From the NCBI GenBank assembly GCA_020832345.1, contig JAFIEY010000068.1:1-47132 (forward strand): a stretch of 47,132 nucleotides of DNA, given 5' to 3'. The notes beneath the pieces were generated by a model. It ran no database searches. It was not told where the DNA came from and saw only the letters and a program-made list of their open reading frames with translations. A program made the translations under genes and the position numbers. Shown here in pieces: positions 11,542-20,314 of this stretch. The stretch comes from Cryomorphaceae bacterium (GTDB lineage Bacteria > Bacteroidota > Bacteroidia > Flavobacteriales > Schleiferiaceae). Within the stretch, counting starts at the first letter, position 1. Every line of letters begins with the position of its first letter.

Positions 11542-14385
11542 TTAAAACCACCCCCGACGTAAGCGTTGGATTAAGCTGTTGAAATCCATATTAAGCACAA
11601 AGCGGATCTCGCTCGGATAGGCGTGATCCCACATGATGCGGTCGTGATTTTGAATGGGAAAATACAACTCTAGGAAATCCGTAAAAATGGATACCCGAAC
11701 CCCGTAGTCCCAATACAATGTGTTTAAATTATCCACAAATCCAACATCGCCAAATACACCGATAAACTGATATAGCGGCACATTCACGTTAAAAGCAGTA
11801 ATCCAACTGCCGGCAAATACATCCGTTCGGGATTTAAATCCACCATCAGTGATGATCATTTGCTGGCTCCAAAATCCACTGGTTTCCGAACGCCCAAGCA
11901 GGTAATAATCGAAGGCATAATCCAAGGTTCCACTTAAACCAAATCGAAAAAAATCTTGGTTTGCAGGTAGATTATTGTAAGCAAAAACACCGGCGAATAA
12001 TCGCGTCGTCAACCATTTTTTATTGGGCAACATCCACCGCTGGTCGAAATCTGCTTGTAACTTCACAAATTGCTCCGAAACTTCAACCAAGGTGCGCAAT
12101 GAACACGGACGAAGGATATTGGTGTTTTCATAATCGTGGGAAACTTGCGCCAACCAGTAACTGGCGTTTTCCATTCCACCCAACATGTCCTGATTGCCTT
12201 CACGGGCCAATTGTAAAAACCGAAATCGCGTGCGGTGAATGTTTTCACTTCGCGGATGAGATTTTCGCCACCAAAACCGAACAAATGGTGAATAGCGGTA
12301 ATATCTCAAATCTGTATCGTAGTGGTAGTTGGTGAAAAACACCCCGGAAGTAATGCGGTGAAACCATCCTGAGGATAGTCGTTGGTTGTTGACAAAAGAT
12401 GCTCGCCCCGTTAGACGCATCGGCAGGGTAGAGAGGGTAGGTTCAATTCTGTACTCGTATTTTTTCGGTATAATGGTGTTGTTGAAAAAAGCCACACCAC
12501 CGTAAATTCCGTCGTATGCATTTAGACCACCGACCGGTTGGAAAAAGATTTGATTCTTTTTGGGATCTTCAATACCGGTGTAAAGCTGAAAGCGCAATGG
12601 GTTTGTACTTCGGAAAAGTCCTTTTTCTTTCATCCTGTGATTCCGGTGGTTGTAGTCCGCAGTTTCGAGGTTTCGGTCGAGAATGATTTCATCATAATCA
12701 TCGAGATTAAACTGAATCGTCTTTTTATCGATATGACCATCAAACCAAATAGAAATTACCGCTTCCCCATTTTTCACCCCGGTGAGTTTATAGGGCAATG
12801 GCGCTTTCCCATGATTTTTTACGGTAACGGCATATACATAGTTGCACTTATCGATGGACGTGATTTCGTAATCTACAATATCCGACTTGTCGAGATAATG
12901 GTTAAAAAACCAATCCACCGATTTGCGGCTGTTGTCACGCAACGACTGTTCTAATGCTACTCGTCCCAAATAATTGGTGGTATCCAGGGCTTTAAACCAA
13001 TGCTGAAAGGCGGTGTAAAAACTCCGCGGGCCGATATAACCTTTAAGATGTCCAATAGCGATGCTGGTTTTACCCTCCGTAATCGCTAAATAATTTGCCA
13101 TGGAAATGTCCGGATATGCGTCCCCAATGGGTTGATCCAAACCCTTTCTAGCCAGATAGGTGTACATCAAATGGTTTTGATAATCAAAATCCAAATCGTC
13201 GAGCCATAAGAAAAACCGCGACCATATACTACCGGTAAGTTTTCCACTGAGGGCTAGGTCAAAATCATTGGTTCGTAAAAAGTCATCTCTAAGGAAATGG
13301 GCCAAACCATCACCCAGCCAAGGCTCGATAAAGAAATTAACGGGTACTTCCGTTTTTACAAAAGTTTGGAAATAAGCCAAGGCATGGGAAACTTCACTGC
13401 TGAGATAACTTTGAAATGCGGACAAAACGCCCGAAACGGCAAAATCAAATCTTTGGTCGTTTTCCGGTAATAAAACAACCCCAAGTCCGGGATCAAAGTA
13501 ATTGACTCTGTACGGGACGGAAATTACACCGTAGTCTGAACCCGGATTTTGGGCAAATCGTTCGTTCAGATACACTTCGGATTGTTCGGCAATATTAAAG
13601 AAAAAATTACTGTACGGTCCGGGATTTATTGTGCTCCAAATATTCCCGCGGTTGGTTAAATGATCCTTTATATAGGCGCTTTTACTCACAATCAAAAAAA
13701 CATCTTGTTTGTTTTTTATGTGAATTTGCTTTGATTCCCCTGAGCCGGGTGTGACAAATCCATTTGAGAAAACTTCGTAATCTTCGGGAAATAAAAAGGA
13801 AAGCGTAAAATCCGCCCTTCTTCGGACAAAATTTGCTTTTTCATTTAATGGAGTAAAAAGCCATTTTTTTTCCGGGTGGTGTGGTGGCAAAAGGAAGGTA
13901 AAGTATTGCAACCAAAGGTCTTGTTCGACAAAACCAACAGGAAATAAACTTCCATCACCGAGTAAAACCGAATATATGGCGTGAAGCCAAACCTTTTCCC
14001 CCGGTTGAATAGGTCGGTCGGGAAAAACCCAAAGAATTTCCGAATCGGGTGCGAATTTTGCGCGAACGGGTATTTTGCCTAACAAGAAAGAAAACGTGTC
14101 TAATCGACTTAATTTGGAATCATGGGCAAAGTGCAAAGTCTTATCTTGATTTTCCAATTTTTCCTTGCGAAAAAAAGAACTGGGGTTTCCCACAGATTGC
14201 AATGGAAAAACCAAAGGGAAACTATCCAGTTGTTCGCCCGTATCGTTTGTCCATTCTAAATTCCACAAAACGCTGAGGCTGCTGTTTTCTTCGTCGAAAG
14301 TAAGGTCAATTTGGTATATGGGCTGTGCTTTCGCCGAAAGGGCAATACATAAAATTACCACACAAGAAAATCCGACTCTGCTCAT
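11542..14385 (-). CDS. M1-aminopeptidase-like protein with degenerate active site and C-terminal outer-membrane barrel
   Basis: The 947-residue product begins with a signal peptide (cleavage after AKA, about residue 20). Residues ~25-560 resemble the N-terminal beta-saddle and gluzincin domain of M1 peptidases. Where HExxH should be, the sequence is SEVSH (residues 330-334): the first His is Ser. The downstream zinc ligand in the usual NEG motif is replaced in WLGDGLAHF. From about residue 590 to the end there are alternating aromatic beta-strands and a terminal Phe (RRGWF), which suggests an outer-membrane barrel. It is therefore probably a catalytically dead, surface- or periplasm-exposed binding protein. 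The function is unknown. It is 16 bp from the TANGO2-like gene on the same strand. Confidence 0.65.
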   Translation of the reverse strand: MSRVGFSCVVILCIALSAKAQPIYQIDLTFDEENSSLSVLWNLEWTNDTGEQLDSFPLVFPLQSVGNPSSFFRKEKLENQDKTLHFAHDSKLSRLDTFSFLLGKIPVRAKFAPDSEILWVFPDRPIQPGEKVWLHAIYSVLLGDGSLFPVGFVEQDLWLQYFTFLLPPHHPEKKWLFTPLNEKANFVRRRADFTLSFLFPEDYEVFSNGFVTPGSGESKQIHIKNKQDVFLIVSKSAYIKDHLTNRGNIWSTINPGPYSNFFFNIAEQSEVYLNERFAQNPGSDYGVISVPYRVNYFDPGLGVVLLPENDQRFDFAVSGVLSAFQSYLSSEVSHALAYFQTFVKTEVPVNFFIEPWLGDGLAHFLRDDFLRTNDFDLALSGKLTGSIWSRFFLWLDDLDFDYQNHLMYTYLARKGLDQPIGDAYPDISMANYLAITEGKTSIAIGHLKGYIGPRSFYTAFQHWFKALDTTNYLGRVALEQSLRDNSRKSVDWFFNHYLDKSDIVDYEITSIDKCNYVYAVTVKNHGKAPLPYKLTGVKNGEAVISIWFDGHIDKKTIQFNLDDYDEIILDRNLETADYNHRNHRMKEKGLFRSTNPLRFQLYTGIEDPKKNQIFFQPVGGLNAYDGIYGGVAFFNNTIIPKKYEYRIEPTLSTLPMRLTGRASFVNNQRLSSGWFHRITSGVFFTNYHYDTDLRYYRYSPFVRFWWRKSHPRSENIHRTRFRFLQLAREGNQDMLGGMENASYWLAQVSHDYENTNILRPCSLRTLVEVSEQFVKLQADFDQRWMLPNKKWLTTRLFAGVFAYNNLPANQDFFRFGLSGTLDYAFDYYLLGRSETSGFWSQQMIITDGGFKSRTDVFAGSWITAFNVNVPLYQFIGVFGDVGFVDNLNTLYWDYGVRVSIFTDFLELYFPIQNHDRIMWDHAYPSEIRFVLNMDFNSLIQRLRRGWF

Positions 14386-15108: not shown

Positions 15109-15768
15109 TTACAAATGGTTTCGCACACGCATGGCAAATTTGAGCAAAACCCCCTGACCTTTTAAATCAAGTTTTCTGGTGATGCTATATCTGTGGTTTT
15201 CTATGGTTTTGGGACTAATAAATAATTCCTCACTCATTTCTATGGTTCGTTCACCATTGGCAATTCTCTTCAGAATTTCTTTCTCTTTGGGCGTCAAAAA
15301 TTTGATTTTTGAAAGTGACTGCTTGTCTTCTTCAGAAATTTCCATAGACTCCAAAGCAGAATCTGAGGATAATTCTTGTTTACGGGCCAATCTGGTTTTA
15401 ATAGCGTTTAATAACTCCACAAAGGAAAAGGGTTTGGTAATATAATCATCAGCGCCAAACTCCATTCCTTTTCGCAGGTCACTTCGGTCGGTTTTTGCGG
15501 TAAGGAAAACAAAAGGAATGCTTTTTAATTCCGGATTGCGGCGCACACTTTGCAAAACCTCGATACCGTCGGTACTTCCCGGCATCATGACATCGCACAT
15601 GATAAAATCTGGTTTGTTTTTTAGAATCATATCCAGTCCATCCTTTCCGCTATACGCAACCAAAACGTGAAATTTTTCCATTTCCAGAAACTCAACGATA
15701 CTATCGGCCAACTTCTTTTCATCTTCAATAAGGGCAATTGTCAAATTACCGGATTCAATTGCGGTCAT
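15109..15768 (-). CDS. Response regulator with LuxR/NarL-type DNA-binding domain
   Basis: The 219-residue protein has a complete receiver domain: acidic pocket at Glu15-Asp16, phospho-acceptor Asp59 in CDVMMPG, Thr90 and Lys112 in TKPF. A C-terminal LuxR helix-turn-helix follows (FLTPKEKEILKRIANGERTIEMSEELFISPKTIENHRYSITRKLDL). It is divergent from the sensor kinase that starts at 16115, so the two are probable partners. A palindromic repeat element (15941-16072) lies between them, upstream of the response-regulator promoter. Confidence 0.9.
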   Translation of the reverse strand: MTAIESGNLTIALIEDEKKLADSIVEFLEMEKFHVLVAYSGKDGLDMILKNKPDFIMCDVMMPGSTDGIEVLQSVRRNPELKSIPFVFLTAKTDRSDLRKGMEFGADDYITKPFSFVELLNAIKTRLARKQELSSDSALESMEISEEDKQSLSKIKFLTPKEKEILKRIANGERTIEMSEELFISPKTIENHRYSITRKLDLKGQGVLLKFAMRVRNHL

Positions 15769-15940: not shown

Positions 15941-16072
15941 GAGTCCACTCCAAAAAGTCTTTGTCTGCCAAAATCTTTCTTGTTGCTAGATTTTTGAATC
16001 CGCACTTGCTCCGTTTCAAAAATCCCCTCCGCGTAGATTTTGATTGAAATCATCCTTTTTTGGAGTGGACTC
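15941..16072 (+). repeat. Palindrome-ended MITE-like repeat, copy 1
   Basis: This 132-bp copy has the best terminal inverted repeats of the family: GAGTCCACTCCAAAAAG at the left, and its reverse complement with one extra A at the right. It carries the short internal form without the small hairpin. I see no flanking direct repeat, so it may be an old insertion. It sits in the divergent promoter region of the two-component pair. Confidence 0.9.
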
Positions 16073-16114: not shown

Positions 16115-18361
16115 TTGAAAGCCAACCAAACACATGATTTGATTTCCTTATTTCCCAAAGTCAGCGAAATCGTTTTGCGGGAAAAAAAACTGGATCGCGG
16201 ATTGCAGGAGGTGCTAACTTTATTAGGAGAGGCAACCGGAGTAGATCGGGTTTATTATTTTAAAAATTACAAAAAGGATGGTGTTCTTTATGGGGTTTAT
16301 CATCTGGAATGGTGTGTTGAGGGTGTAGAGCCCCAGATTGACCAACCGGATCTCAATCATTTTTCCTATCCGAGTTTGGAAGGGTTTTATACCGATTTTG
16401 TAAAGTCTAAAAGTCTTGTTTCAGAAGATGTTACAAAGCTTCCGTACAATCGTTTTCGGGAATTAATGATTGAACAAAATATCCTTTCGGCGCTTTTAAT
16501 CAAAGTTTCATTCGAAAAGGACTTTTTGGGTTTTGTCGGGTTCGACAGTTGTAAGAGCAAACGAAAATGGAAACCCGAAGAAGTCCGCATTCTGGAGCAT
16601 CTGGCTGATATCATCGCACACCGAATTGTACGGGAGTCAGCTTTGGAAGCATCTCAGGCGTATTTGAACCGAATAGAGCGGAGAAATGAATTTCTCGCCG
16701 AAGTTCGCTCTGCGCAATCGGCATTTATAGAAAACCCTAAAAGCAACACCGTTTTTGAAAAATTACTTACGGCCATTTGCACCTATACCGATTTTGAAAA
16801 AGGAATAATCGTTTCTTATATTGCGCCGCATACGAACCGAAAGAAGGGAAATCCAACCATCATAGCGAAGTCCACAAAAGCGTCAGATGCAGATATGGAT
16901 GCGGTATATTTAATAAACGAAAAATGCACAGAGGTGTATTTGGATAAAAAAGGTCAAAAGTATTTAAGGTGGGCAAATCGACACAAAAAGCCCATTGTGT
17001 TCGATTTTTTTTCCGAAAATTTTGAATTGGAATTTGATTTAAAAAAAGCTGGTGAAAACAAAGCCGGCAATAAAAGTCTAGTTTTCCCGGTATTTTTTGG
17101 AAATATTTTGATGGCCACCGTGTATCTCATCAATGCCCGCCAAATCCAGAAGTCCATACCCGCATTGATGGAGGAGTTGGGATCTGTTACCGATTCAATG
17201 GTTCACATTTTTACCAGTATTCGATTTAATTATGAAAAAAGTGTTGTTGAGGATTTGGCTGAAAACCAGCGGAGATCCTTTCGGCAACTCATCGAAAAAA
17301 CCCTAAGTGGTTATTGGGAAATCAGTCCTAATGGAAATTTTACCAGTCGAAAGTTACTCCAAACGCTGGGTTATAGTGATGTTTTCAGATTAGAAAATGA
17401 AATATCAACACGCTGGACAGACCATGTCGTAAAAGAAGATGTAGATGCGTTTTACTTTATGGTAGAAAAGAAAATTGTCAAAGCACGTCGCATTAACCAA
17501 ACCATTTCCATGGAAATGAGGTTTAAGCACCGTAAAGGAAAAATTTTAACCATGCTGGTGGGCGCCATCATTAATGTTACAGAAAATGGGGCATTGCAAA
17601 TATTTGGCTGTAATGTGGATATCAGTAATGCCGCTGATTTGTCTAGGACATTAAAAATTAATCTCAAGAAAGAGCAAGAACTCAACAAGTTAAAATCACA
17701 TTTTATTTCGGTGGTTTCTCATCAGTTTAGAACACCTATGTCGGTCATTCAAAGCAATACTGAGATTATAGCCAAGAAATCAGAAGAAGTAATTGATTTG
17801 CATAAAAACATTCAGAGAATTTATGACGAAATAGCGAGAATGAATCAGCTGATTGAAAAAGTTCTTACCATGGAGAGGTTGCAATTAGAAGAATCATCCG
17901 ACCAAATTTCACAATTTAGCTTAAAGGAACTTATCGAGTCTCTTATAGCGAGATATGATGACAATGGAGATAATTTCTTTTTGTTTAACACAGACTTAAA
18001 TGGTGAAAAGTCAATTATTTCTTCAGACAAGGAAAAATTGGAAGCCATTATCGACAACATCCTTTCCAATGCGATAAAATATGGTGGAAATAGGCAGCGA
18101 GAGGTGAATTTAATACTAGATAACAAGCATAAAAAATTTATACTAAGTGTTAAAGATTTTGGCATGGGCATCCCTAAAAGCAATCTTGAAAGTATTTTCA
18201 CCCCATTTACACGTGCAGAAAATGTATCTCATTTAGAAGGAACAGGTTTAGGATTATCTATAGCCAAAGAATACGCCCAAAGACTTAATATACAAATAGA
18301 AGTAAAAAGCAAACTAAATTCATTTTCGGAATTTTTACTTTACATTCCATCCGATTACTAA
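16115..18361 (+). CDS. GAF/GAF/PAS sensor histidine kinase
   Basis: The 748-residue product has no membrane segment and is probably a cytoplasmic sensor. Two GAF-like regions (about residues 20-170 and 195-375) are followed by a PAS-like segment (about 385-510), then the HisKA domain with SHQFRTP (His536) and a HATPase domain with N-box NILSNAIKYGG, G1 DFGMGIP and G2 GTGLGLSIA. The frame opens after a TGA at 16106 and the first usable start is TTG at 16115; there is no early in-frame ATG, so the exact start is uncertain. Its likely partner is the divergent response regulator. Confidence 0.88.
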   Translation: MKANQTHDLISLFPKVSEIVLREKKLDRGLQEVLTLLGEATGVDRVYYFKNYKKDGVLYGVYHLEWCVEGVEPQIDQPDLNHFSYPSLEGFYTDFVKSKSLVSEDVTKLPYNRFRELMIEQNILSALLIKVSFEKDFLGFVGFDSCKSKRKWKPEEVRILEHLADIIAHRIVRESALEASQAYLNRIERRNEFLAEVRSAQSAFIENPKSNTVFEKLLTAICTYTDFEKGIIVSYIAPHTNRKKGNPTIIAKSTKASDADMDAVYLINEKCTEVYLDKKGQKYLRWANRHKKPIVFDFFSENFELEFDLKKAGENKAGNKSLVFPVFFGNILMATVYLINARQIQKSIPALMEELGSVTDSMVHIFTSIRFNYEKSVVEDLAENQRRSFRQLIEKTLSGYWEISPNGNFTSRKLLQTLGYSDVFRLENEISTRWTDHVVKEDVDAFYFMVEKKIVKARRINQTISMEMRFKHRKGKILTMLVGAIINVTENGALQIFGCNVDISNAADLSRTLKINLKKEQELNKLKSHFISVVSHQFRTPMSVIQSNTEIIAKKSEEVIDLHKNIQRIYDEIARMNQLIEKVLTMERLQLEESSDQISQFSLKELIESLIARYDDNGDNFFLFNTDLNGEKSIISSDKEKLEAIIDNILSNAIKYGGNRQREVNLILDNKHKKFILSVKDFGMGIPKSNLESIFTPFTRAENVSHLEGTGLGLSIAKEYAQRLNIQIEVKSKLNSFSEFLLYIPSDY

Positions 18362-18453
18362 CCGTAAAAAGGCGTAAAGTATTACAAATTTATGTCGAAA
18401 AAAAATTTGACGAAAAAAACTAAAAAAACCACAGAAATGAGTATTATCACGTA

Positions 18454-18485
18454 TTGGGTGGATAAATGGTTTGTTTATATATTTG
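18454..18485 (+). promoter_or_regulatory. Promoter reading into the leader-hairpin cluster
   Basis: TTG at 18454-18456 and TATATTTG at 18478-18485 are 21 nt apart. It lies in the 485-bp gap after the sensor kinase and points toward the three leader-hairpin units, with no protein gene downstream on this strand. A transcript would begin near 18492. Confidence 0.5.
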
Positions 18486-18593
18486 TAACAGAAATTTAAA
18501 GCACATATATAATTTCTCCAAGAAAAAGTATATTGCTTGTTTTTATTGCAAAAAAGTTCTTTTAATTACAAAACCAGTTTTGGTTTTAAAATA

Positions 18594-18650
18594 AGTGAGT
18601 AGGAGTGTTTTCATGATGCCGTCGATGTGAAAACATCGACGGTTTTCTCC
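18594..18650 (+). ncRNA. Leader-hairpin unit A (possible small RNA or terminator module)
   Basis: The unit starts with a 23-nt leader (first 20 nt AGTGAGTAGGAGTGTTTTCA), followed by a perfect 10-bp stem at 18619-18642 with a GAAA loop and a TTTTC tail. Here the AGGAG of the leader can also pair with CTCCT after the stem. The leader is identical in units B and C. The type is uncertain: it could be a small RNA with its own terminator. Confidence 0.45.
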
Positions 18651-18691
18651 TAATCAAAATAATATACAGCCGATATATTTCGGTTTGCAGC

Positions 18692-18749
18692 AGTGAGTAG
18701 GAGTGTTTTCATGAGCCGACGATGTACATTAGTACGTCGTCGGTTTTTT
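18692..18749 (+). ncRNA. Leader-hairpin unit B (possible small RNA or terminator module)
   Basis: The same 23-nt leader precedes a 12-bp stem at 18716-18743 (one G-U pair, loop ATTA) and six T residues. The stem sequence is unrelated to that of unit A but nearly the same as in unit C. Six Ts after a GC-rich stem is a standard intrinsic terminator. Confidence 0.5.
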
Positions 18750-18773
18750 AGAAAACCTTTGAAATTTGAAAGC

Positions 18774-18836
18774 AGTGAGTAGGAGTGTTTTCATGAGCCG
18801 ACGATGTACATATAGTACGTCGTCGGTTTTTTTTTT
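18774..18836 (+). ncRNA. Leader-hairpin unit C (possible small RNA or terminator module)
   Basis: This is the third copy of the 23-nt leader. The stem at 18798-18826 equals that of unit B with a loop of ATATA in place of ATTA, followed by ten T residues, a strong intrinsic terminator. It ends 11 bp before the stop of the convergent ABC1 kinase gene. The rest of the 18362-18593 gap is AT-rich and holds a 7-bp hairpin at about 18570-18587. Confidence 0.5.
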
Positions 18837-18846
18837 GTACTAAATT

Positions 18847-20157
18847 TTAAATTGGTTGCAATAACGCACTGTGCGTATTGATTTTAGCTTTGAGCTTATT
18901 TAAAATACTGTAAAGACCAAAATAGGTTCGATTCAAATAGATTGCATCACGAGGACCTCTGGCGCCTCCTGCATTTTTCAGGGTTTTGTCCTTACTGTAT
19001 TTGTTGCTCAATCCATAAATCTGATCAAAAAACGCATCTGAACCAAAATCAAATGTTTCGGTGTGGAATGGACGCGCCAATAGCTCAATCATTTCGTGGA
19101 AAACATCGTATAGATAGGCGCGGAGCTGGGCGTTATCTTTGCTGAGGATGAAGCTCAACTCTGCTAATATTTCTTCAAACTTGGCTTTATTCTCCAACAC
19201 GTCCGGACGAAGAAGTTGGAAATATACTTGATAAAATTCTTCGGGGATGACTTTAACGCAGCCAAAATCAATTACCCCAAGCGTTCCATCTTCGCTAAAC
19301 AAAAAATTACCGGGATGTGGGTCGGCATGTACTTGCTTTAATGTGTGGATCTGAAATTCATAAAAATCCCAAAGTCGTTGCCCAAGTAAATTCTTTGTCT
19401 CCTGCGAAGGATTGGTGGCTAAAAATTCATCCAAATGCTTTCCGTGTATCCAATCCATGGTCAGGATTCGTTCAGCACTCAGCGCTGGATAGTATTTGGG
19501 AAAACGCATTCCCTCTAAACCGGCGCAAGCTTCGCTAATTTCAATGGAACGATTCATTTCTAAAGCGTAATCTGTTTCTTCCAGCAATCGACTTTTTACC
19601 TCAACCAAGTAGTGGTTTAATTCTTCGGAATTGAGGTCAAACATTCTGAGCACAAATGGTTTGATAATCCTCAGATCCGATTCGATACTGTCGGCAACAC
19701 CGGGATACTGAATTTTTACAGCTAATTTTTTTCCATCTTTATGGGCAATGTGTACCTGACCAATCGACGCCGCATGTTTACTGGATTTCTCGAATTCATC
19801 GAAAAGCGATTGGGGCGAGGCGTTGAAATACCTATTAAAAGTATTTACCACCAAAGGGTAGGAGAGTGGGGGTGCACTGTATTGCGAAAGGGCAAATTTT
19901 TCTGAATAAGCCTGTGGAAGTATTCCTTTATCCATACTTAGCATTTGAGCAACTTTTAAGGCACTTCCCTTTAATTCACTCAGGGAATTGTAAATGTCTT
20001 CCGCGTTGTCCAAATTGAGCTGCTCCCGGTCATCAGTACCACTCAATATTTTTTTTGAGTAATACTTTAGGTAGTTTCCACCAACTTTTCCGCCCGTGGA
20101 AACAAATTTGGTGGCCCGTTGGATTTTTCCGGTTGGAATTTTATTTTGTTCCTTCAT
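18847..20157 (-). CDS. ABC1/UbiB (AarF) family atypical kinase
   Basis: The 436-residue product has the ABC1 signatures in order: the KxGQ-like segment SELKGSALKVAQMLSMD (here KVAQ) at about residues 57-73, the Ala-rich loop AASIGQVHIA, the ATP-binding lysine in AVKIQYPG, the catalytic-loop motif HADPHPGNF and the metal-binding VIDFGCV. Family members act in quinone or isoprenoid lipid metabolism; the substrate here is unknown. A TetR-like gene lies upstream on the same strand, separated only by repeat copy 2, so the pair was probably an operon before the insertion. Confidence 0.88.
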   Translation of the reverse strand: MKEQNKIPTGKIQRATKFVSTGGKVGGNYLKYYSKKILSGTDDREQLNLDNAEDIYNSLSELKGSALKVAQMLSMDKGILPQAYSEKFALSQYSAPPLSYPLVVNTFNRYFNASPQSLFDEFEKSSKHAASIGQVHIAHKDGKKLAVKIQYPGVADSIESDLRIIKPFVLRMFDLNSEELNHYLVEVKSRLLEETDYALEMNRSIEISEACAGLEGMRFPKYYPALSAERILTMDWIHGKHLDEFLATNPSQETKNLLGQRLWDFYEFQIHTLKQVHADPHPGNFLFSEDGTLGVIDFGCVKVIPEEFYQVYFQLLRPDVLENKAKFEEILAELSFILSKDNAQLRAYLYDVFHEMIELLARPFHTETFDFGSDAFFDQIYGLSNKYSKDKTLKNAGGARGPRDAIYLNRTYFGLYSILNKLKAKINTHSALLQPI

Positions 20158-20192: not shown

Positions 20193-20314
20193 GAGTCTGC
20201 TAAAAGTCCCTTTCTGCCAAAATCTTCCTTGTCGATAGACTTTTGAATCCTCACTTGTTCCGGTTCAAAAATCCCCTCGATTTTGATTGAAATCATCCTT
20301 TTTAGAGTGGACTC
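20193..20314 (+). repeat. Palindrome-ended MITE-like repeat, copy 2
   Basis: This 122-bp copy lies between the TetR-like and ABC1 kinase genes. It is the short internal form without the hairpin, with a small deletion in the left terminal repeat. Instead of a 6-bp target duplication it is bracketed by a 20-bp direct repeat. Confidence 0.9.

Follow-up and report, generated by a model that had tools for sequence, protein, structure and literature searches.

A Predicted Tandem Small RNA Family Linked to a Two-Component System in a Genus of Cryomorphaceae

The Locus and Its Gene Neighborhood

The window, meaning the whole 47,132-nucleotide stretch of Cryomorphaceae DNA that was analyzed, contains a gene-free gap (18362–18846) between the stop codon of a histidine kinase gene at 18361 and the end of a convergent ABC1 kinase gene at 18847. 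Three repeated leader-hairpin units and a predicted promoter lie in this gap, which an earlier note on the sequence had rightly described as free of genes. The kinase gene is divergent from a gene for a LuxR/NarL-type response regulator, a two-component linkage that the note did not mention. Coordinates are collected in Table 1.

Table 1. Features of the small RNA (sRNA) locus and its two-component genes, in window coordinates.
Feature	Position	Strand	Description
LuxR/NarL-type response regulator gene	15109..15768	-	Pfam Response_reg 2.1e-26, GerE 1.2e-14; candidate sRNA activator
Histidine kinase gene (GAF, HisKA, HATPase_c)	16115..18361	+	Immediately upstream of the sRNA
Imperfect inverted-repeat box ATGAGTATTATCACGTAT, 18 bp	18437..18454	+	Candidate response-regulator site; similar box in 3 other genomes
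Predicted promoter TTG-N21-TATATTTG	18454..18485	+	From sequence; TATnTTTG common to 4/4 loci
Unit A	18594..18651	+	Invariant 19-nt leader 18594-18612, hairpin 18618-18643, interrupted T tail
Unit B	18692..18752	+	Leader 18692-18710, hairpin 18713-18746, T tail
Unit C	18774..18836	+	Leader 18774-18792, hairpin 18795-18829, strong T tail

The gene order TANGO2, LuxR-type regulator, divergent kinase and sRNA is kept in all four genomes that carry the element, with the regulator orthologue at the equivalent position in the other three and the sRNA directly downstream of the kinase on the same strand in each. The gene beyond the sRNA is always convergent but varies, being an ABC1 kinase gene in the window, a gene judged by eye to be DNA-polymerase-I-like in two relatives (G316 and G173), and another gene in the third (G164). 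Since the upstream order is kept while the gene beyond varies, the sRNA remains linked to the two-component genes even where gene order breaks. At the thresholds used, no full-length orthologues of the regulator or kinase were found outside the genus among 88 genomes of the family; the kinase of G164 fell under the E-value cut of this search, yet is present at the locus. In a fifth genome of the genus (G368, 92% complete), the regulator, the kinase, the RNA, and a 947-aa neighbor all went undetected. This neighbor, encoded at 11542–14385 of the window and having no Pfam match, adjoins the TANGO2-regulator-kinase-sRNA cluster in 4/4 genomes.

Two further observations concern the two-component genes. 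The kinase gene of G173 (L025 6223–8463, G173:C1) carries a single in-frame TAA at codon 387, which reflects either decay or an assembly error; the regulator and the sRNA units of that genome are intact. In the space between the regulator and kinase genes of the window (15941–16072), the two arms of a perfect 16-bp inverted repeat, GAGTCCACTCCAAAAA, stand 100 nt apart. Single copies of the GAGTCCACTCYAAAA type occur at 20300, 29926, 33284, 36643, and 42982 of the window, as well as on other contigs of the same genome, and these repeats are read as dispersed MITE/REP-like sequences.

Architecture of the Repeated Units

Each unit begins with an exact copy of a 23-nt leader, AGTGAGTAGGAGTGTTTTCATGA, followed by a T-tailed hairpin. 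The three identical leaders reported by the earlier note were thus recovered by a scan of the window, which held no further copy at ≤3 mismatches; no copy arose in 100 dinucleotide-preserving shuffles. The hairpins of units A, B, and C have fold z-scores of -5.6, -5.3, and -6.4, respectively, and those of units A and C were listed by a terminator scan. The T tail of unit A is interrupted (TTTTCTCC), so only units B and C have the look of strong terminators. The note had also taken the hairpin of unit A to be completely different in sequence. In fact, the 5′ arms can be aligned (GCCGtCGATGT / GCCGaCGATGT), and the differences are compensated changes. Units B and C differ little along their whole length and look like a recent duplication. 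Unit C is probably the end of the full predicted transcript. In structure predictions, roughly half to two thirds of the leader is unpaired, with weak alternative pairings that vary between units. A search of the window against the Rfam 15 families, a check that the note had proposed, gave no matches at the gathering threshold, and all sub-threshold matches of the sRNA region were far under it.

Promoter and Upstream Box

The promoter that the earlier note had placed at 18454–18485 fits the form typical of Bacteroidota, present here as TTG-N21-TATATTTG. The -7 element, TATATTTG at 18478–18485, is kept as TATnTTTG at all four loci. Measured from its center, the inverted-repeat box precedes the -7 element by ~31–33 nt in 4/4 genomes, which would be a normal position for an activator touching polymerase. 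From this position and the genetic linkage, we infer that the neighboring regulator may control the sRNA. A wider regulon was also sought by means of the box; the extra best matches that were inspected fall inside long reading frames, and the candidate was set aside.

Occurrence and Conservation in Relatives

An exact 22-mer search of the genome collection, following the earlier note's suggestion to look for the leader in relatives, found it in just three further records, each of them a Cryomorphaceae MAG (G164, G316, and G173). Each of these congeneric species has two tandem units, as against three in the window genome, for a total of nine units in four species of one genus. A 19-nt core, AGTGAGTAGGAGTGTTTTC, is unchanged in all nine. 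It is followed by ATGA in seven, the second units of G316 and G173 having TAAG instead. Between sRNA-bearing genomes, one close genome pair excepted, the regulators share 47–57% identity and the kinases 32–44%. That the leader core is invariant while the kinases have diverged to this degree suggests strict recognition by some partner.

The stems behave differently from the leader. Both sides have changed in 7 of 11 pairs, and the covariation score is 0.530 compared with 0.217 after shuffling (0/500). The T run is longer in the last unit of each array and weaker in the first, making read-through to longer RNAs likely. The earlier note's proposal of an sRNA whose single-stranded part is conserved while its terminator can be exchanged is thereby supported, with the three other species, the invariant core, the covarying stems, and the conserved promoter all pointing to such a gene.

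These data bear on two DNA- or transcript-level alternatives. One is that the units are merely the tail of the kinase mRNA, that is, stacked terminators in which the leader is accessory and has no role in trans. The position directly downstream of the kinase on the same strand in 4/4 genomes would suit such a tail, as would the terminator-type hairpins that end the units. However, a conserved separate promoter and box stand between the kinase and the units, and it is the leader rather than the hairpin that is invariant; intrinsic terminators have no need of 19 nt of conserved upstream sequence. This makes the tail an unlikely explanation. The other alternative supposes no RNA gene at all, the units being a DNA-binding site or a DNA repeat that is mobile or duplicated; it draws on the near-identity and recently duplicated look of units B and C. 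It is very improbable given that the locus is common to 4/4 genomes, that the stems covary in the RNA sense, and that no copies occur elsewhere in the four genomes (≤1 mismatch) or, as exact matches, in viral contigs. The viral search likewise disposed of a phage origin.

Beyond the genus, an 18-mer search with ≤1 mismatch across 396 genomes of the order yielded the four genus genomes and a single match in G176, which, when read at the sequence level, is about what chance would give (~2 chance matches expected by calculation). A covariance model built from the nine units scored those of the genus at 66–78 bits in the same 396 genomes, the best other match reaching 32.8 bits; the outside matches that were inspected proved to be plain terminators or sequences resembling the leader, in some cases at start codons. 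With no members beyond the genus by exact 22-mer in the genome collection, and none convincing by one mismatch or by RNA model in the order, the element is genus-restricted within the searches made.

The Search for a Target

Pairing of the leader with mRNA, as suggested by the earlier note, is plausible, although the long antisense sites that would make the case were not convincing. The 13-nt antisense core did not recur as an exact match anywhere else in five genus genomes. A G:U-tolerant 19-nt antisense turned up outside the sRNA in no genome but that of the window, where none of its four sites was convincing. In gene samples from two genomes (241 and 298 genes), the full 23-nt leader paired better with start regions than did shuffled leaders (z -2.5 and -3.7), a preference absent from upstream or internal regions. 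It vanished when shuffling spared only the leader end, and no start-site bias was seen with the invariant 19-nt core by itself. The preference is therefore due solely to CAU, the anti-AUG presented by the leader end AUGA, which lies outside the invariant core. CAU is present in 7/9 units, and a CCUCC-type anti-SD is absent from the leader.

Specific candidates fared no better. Pairing with the neighbors (regulator, kinase, TANGO2, and the 947-aa gene) did not exceed that of shuffled leaders. The idea of an antisense to the start of a secreted-protein gene (reverse complement ATGAAAACACTCCTACTCACT, MKTLLLT) was rejected, as convincing long sites were not found and the start bias stems from the anti-AUG end. 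Base-pairing near start codons nevertheless remains plausible by analogy with the csRNAs and FopS (PMC3091779, PMC11697453). No target turned up in the searches that would account for the invariant core.

The same segment could be viewed as a ribosome decoy or the start of a leader peptide, with AGGAG 7 nt before ATG recruiting ribosomes. AGGAG-N7-ATG does occur in 7/9 units, but the ATG is missing from the second units of G316 and G173, reading frames differ between units with none conserved, and there is no downstream gene to attenuate. Moreover, Bacteroidota ribosomes hardly use the anti-SD. The mimicry of a ribosome-binding site raised by the earlier note is correspondingly weak, and this reading is highly improbable.

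A Protein Partner as the Main Rival

Invariance over 19 nt exceeds the usual seed, and protein binding would fit it too; among the alternatives to base-pairing, a protein bound to the leader is the strongest. In one form, the repeated and exposed leader (UAGGAG) would act as a sponge, titrating an RNA-binding protein new to the group under a GacA-like LuxR-type regulator. The precedents are RsmX/Y/Z of the Gac/Rsm system, sRNAs that have a LuxR-type regulator, an upstream inverted-repeat box, and repeated exposed GGA segments; CsrB/C likewise titrate CsrA. The present element resembles RsmX/Y/Z in all three features. The two to three identical GGA-bearing copies, the 19-nt invariance, the LuxR-type regulator with its box, and the failure of the searches to find an mRNA target are all as a sponge would have them. 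In contrast, CsrA/RsmA (PF02599) was not found in five genus genomes, with positive controls in E. coli and B. subtilis, which argues against a sponge for CsrA itself. Hfq (PF17209) was also not found in these five genomes, again with positive controls. The leader has TAGGAG and lacks ANGGA, TAGGA being without the first A of that motif; TAGGA is not consistently placed in a hairpin loop in structure predictions; and the box sequence is unlike the GacA box. A sponge is thus a possible but minority explanation. Somewhat more doubtful still is the specific idea of a Gac/Rsm-like circuit of independent origin in Bacteroidota without CsrA, in which a LuxR-type two-component system would drive a tandem sRNA whose 19-nt leader titrates an RNA-binding protein.

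Comparison with Known sRNA Families

CiaR of streptococci is an OmpR-type regulator, as opposed to the LuxR type found here. The CiaR-dependent csRNAs comprise several similar sRNAs with two-component activation and intrinsic terminators, and csRNA1-1/1-2 of S. sanguinis are in tandem (PMC3091779, PMC8186281). The csRNAs possess an unpaired region with an anti-AUG CAU, and their primary conservation is limited (PMC3091779, PMC8186281). The CAU of 7/9 present units may correspond to theirs, whereas the core here is invariant. The csRNAs differ further in belonging to another phylum and in build, each present unit having one leader and one hairpin. The direct repeat of CiaR promoters, TTTAAG-N5-TTTAAG (PMC3091779), is absent from the present promoter region, which has the inverted-repeat box and TATATTTG instead. 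The csRNA UCCUAAA nonamer is absent from the element as well.

Closer in taxonomy is the FopS/GibS family of Bacteroides, made up of multicopy ~65-nt sRNAs that are alike in their 5′ part and more variable beyond it, in which FopS binds mRNA start regions (PMC11697453). Compared by description, the two have in common their phylum, their multicopy nature, and a common 5′ part. However, the 14 FopS paralogues lie at separate places and are not described as tandem or two-component-linked (PMC11697453). None of the known families compared (Rfam 15, CiaR csRNAs, and Rsm/Csr sponges) matches the element in full.

Proposed Mode of Action

Judged by its sequence features, the element is a real and undescribed tandem sRNA family with a two-component linkage. 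The best explanation, with a probability of roughly 0.58, is a trans-acting sRNA gene of two to three units, probably activated by the regulator, whose leader most likely pairs with mRNA starts. Transcription would begin near 18490 from the element's own promoter. A signal sensed by the GAF-domain kinase would probably pass to the nearby LuxR-type regulator, which would then activate the sRNA. Stops could occur at each hairpin, so that RNAs of one, two, and three units would coexist; the strongest terminator is in the last unit. The active part would be the exposed 19–23-nt leader, identical in every unit, and repetition of the units would raise the dose. Through its CAU anti-AUG (7/9 units), the leader would most likely pair with mRNAs around their start codons and block translation.

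Regulator, kinase, and sRNA would then form a compact, self-contained module, and this in a group with few characterized sRNAs and with neither Hfq nor CsrA found in the five genus genomes. Finding the partner of the leader would reveal a regulon of mRNAs or, alternatively, a novel protein that binds RNA.

A minor observation is that the -7 element and unit A are separated by a region (18486–18593) that is ~70 nt longer in the window than in the relatives. It contains AATTACAAAA/ATTGCAAAAAAG stretches that resemble the inter-unit spacers, and may be what is left of a lost unit.
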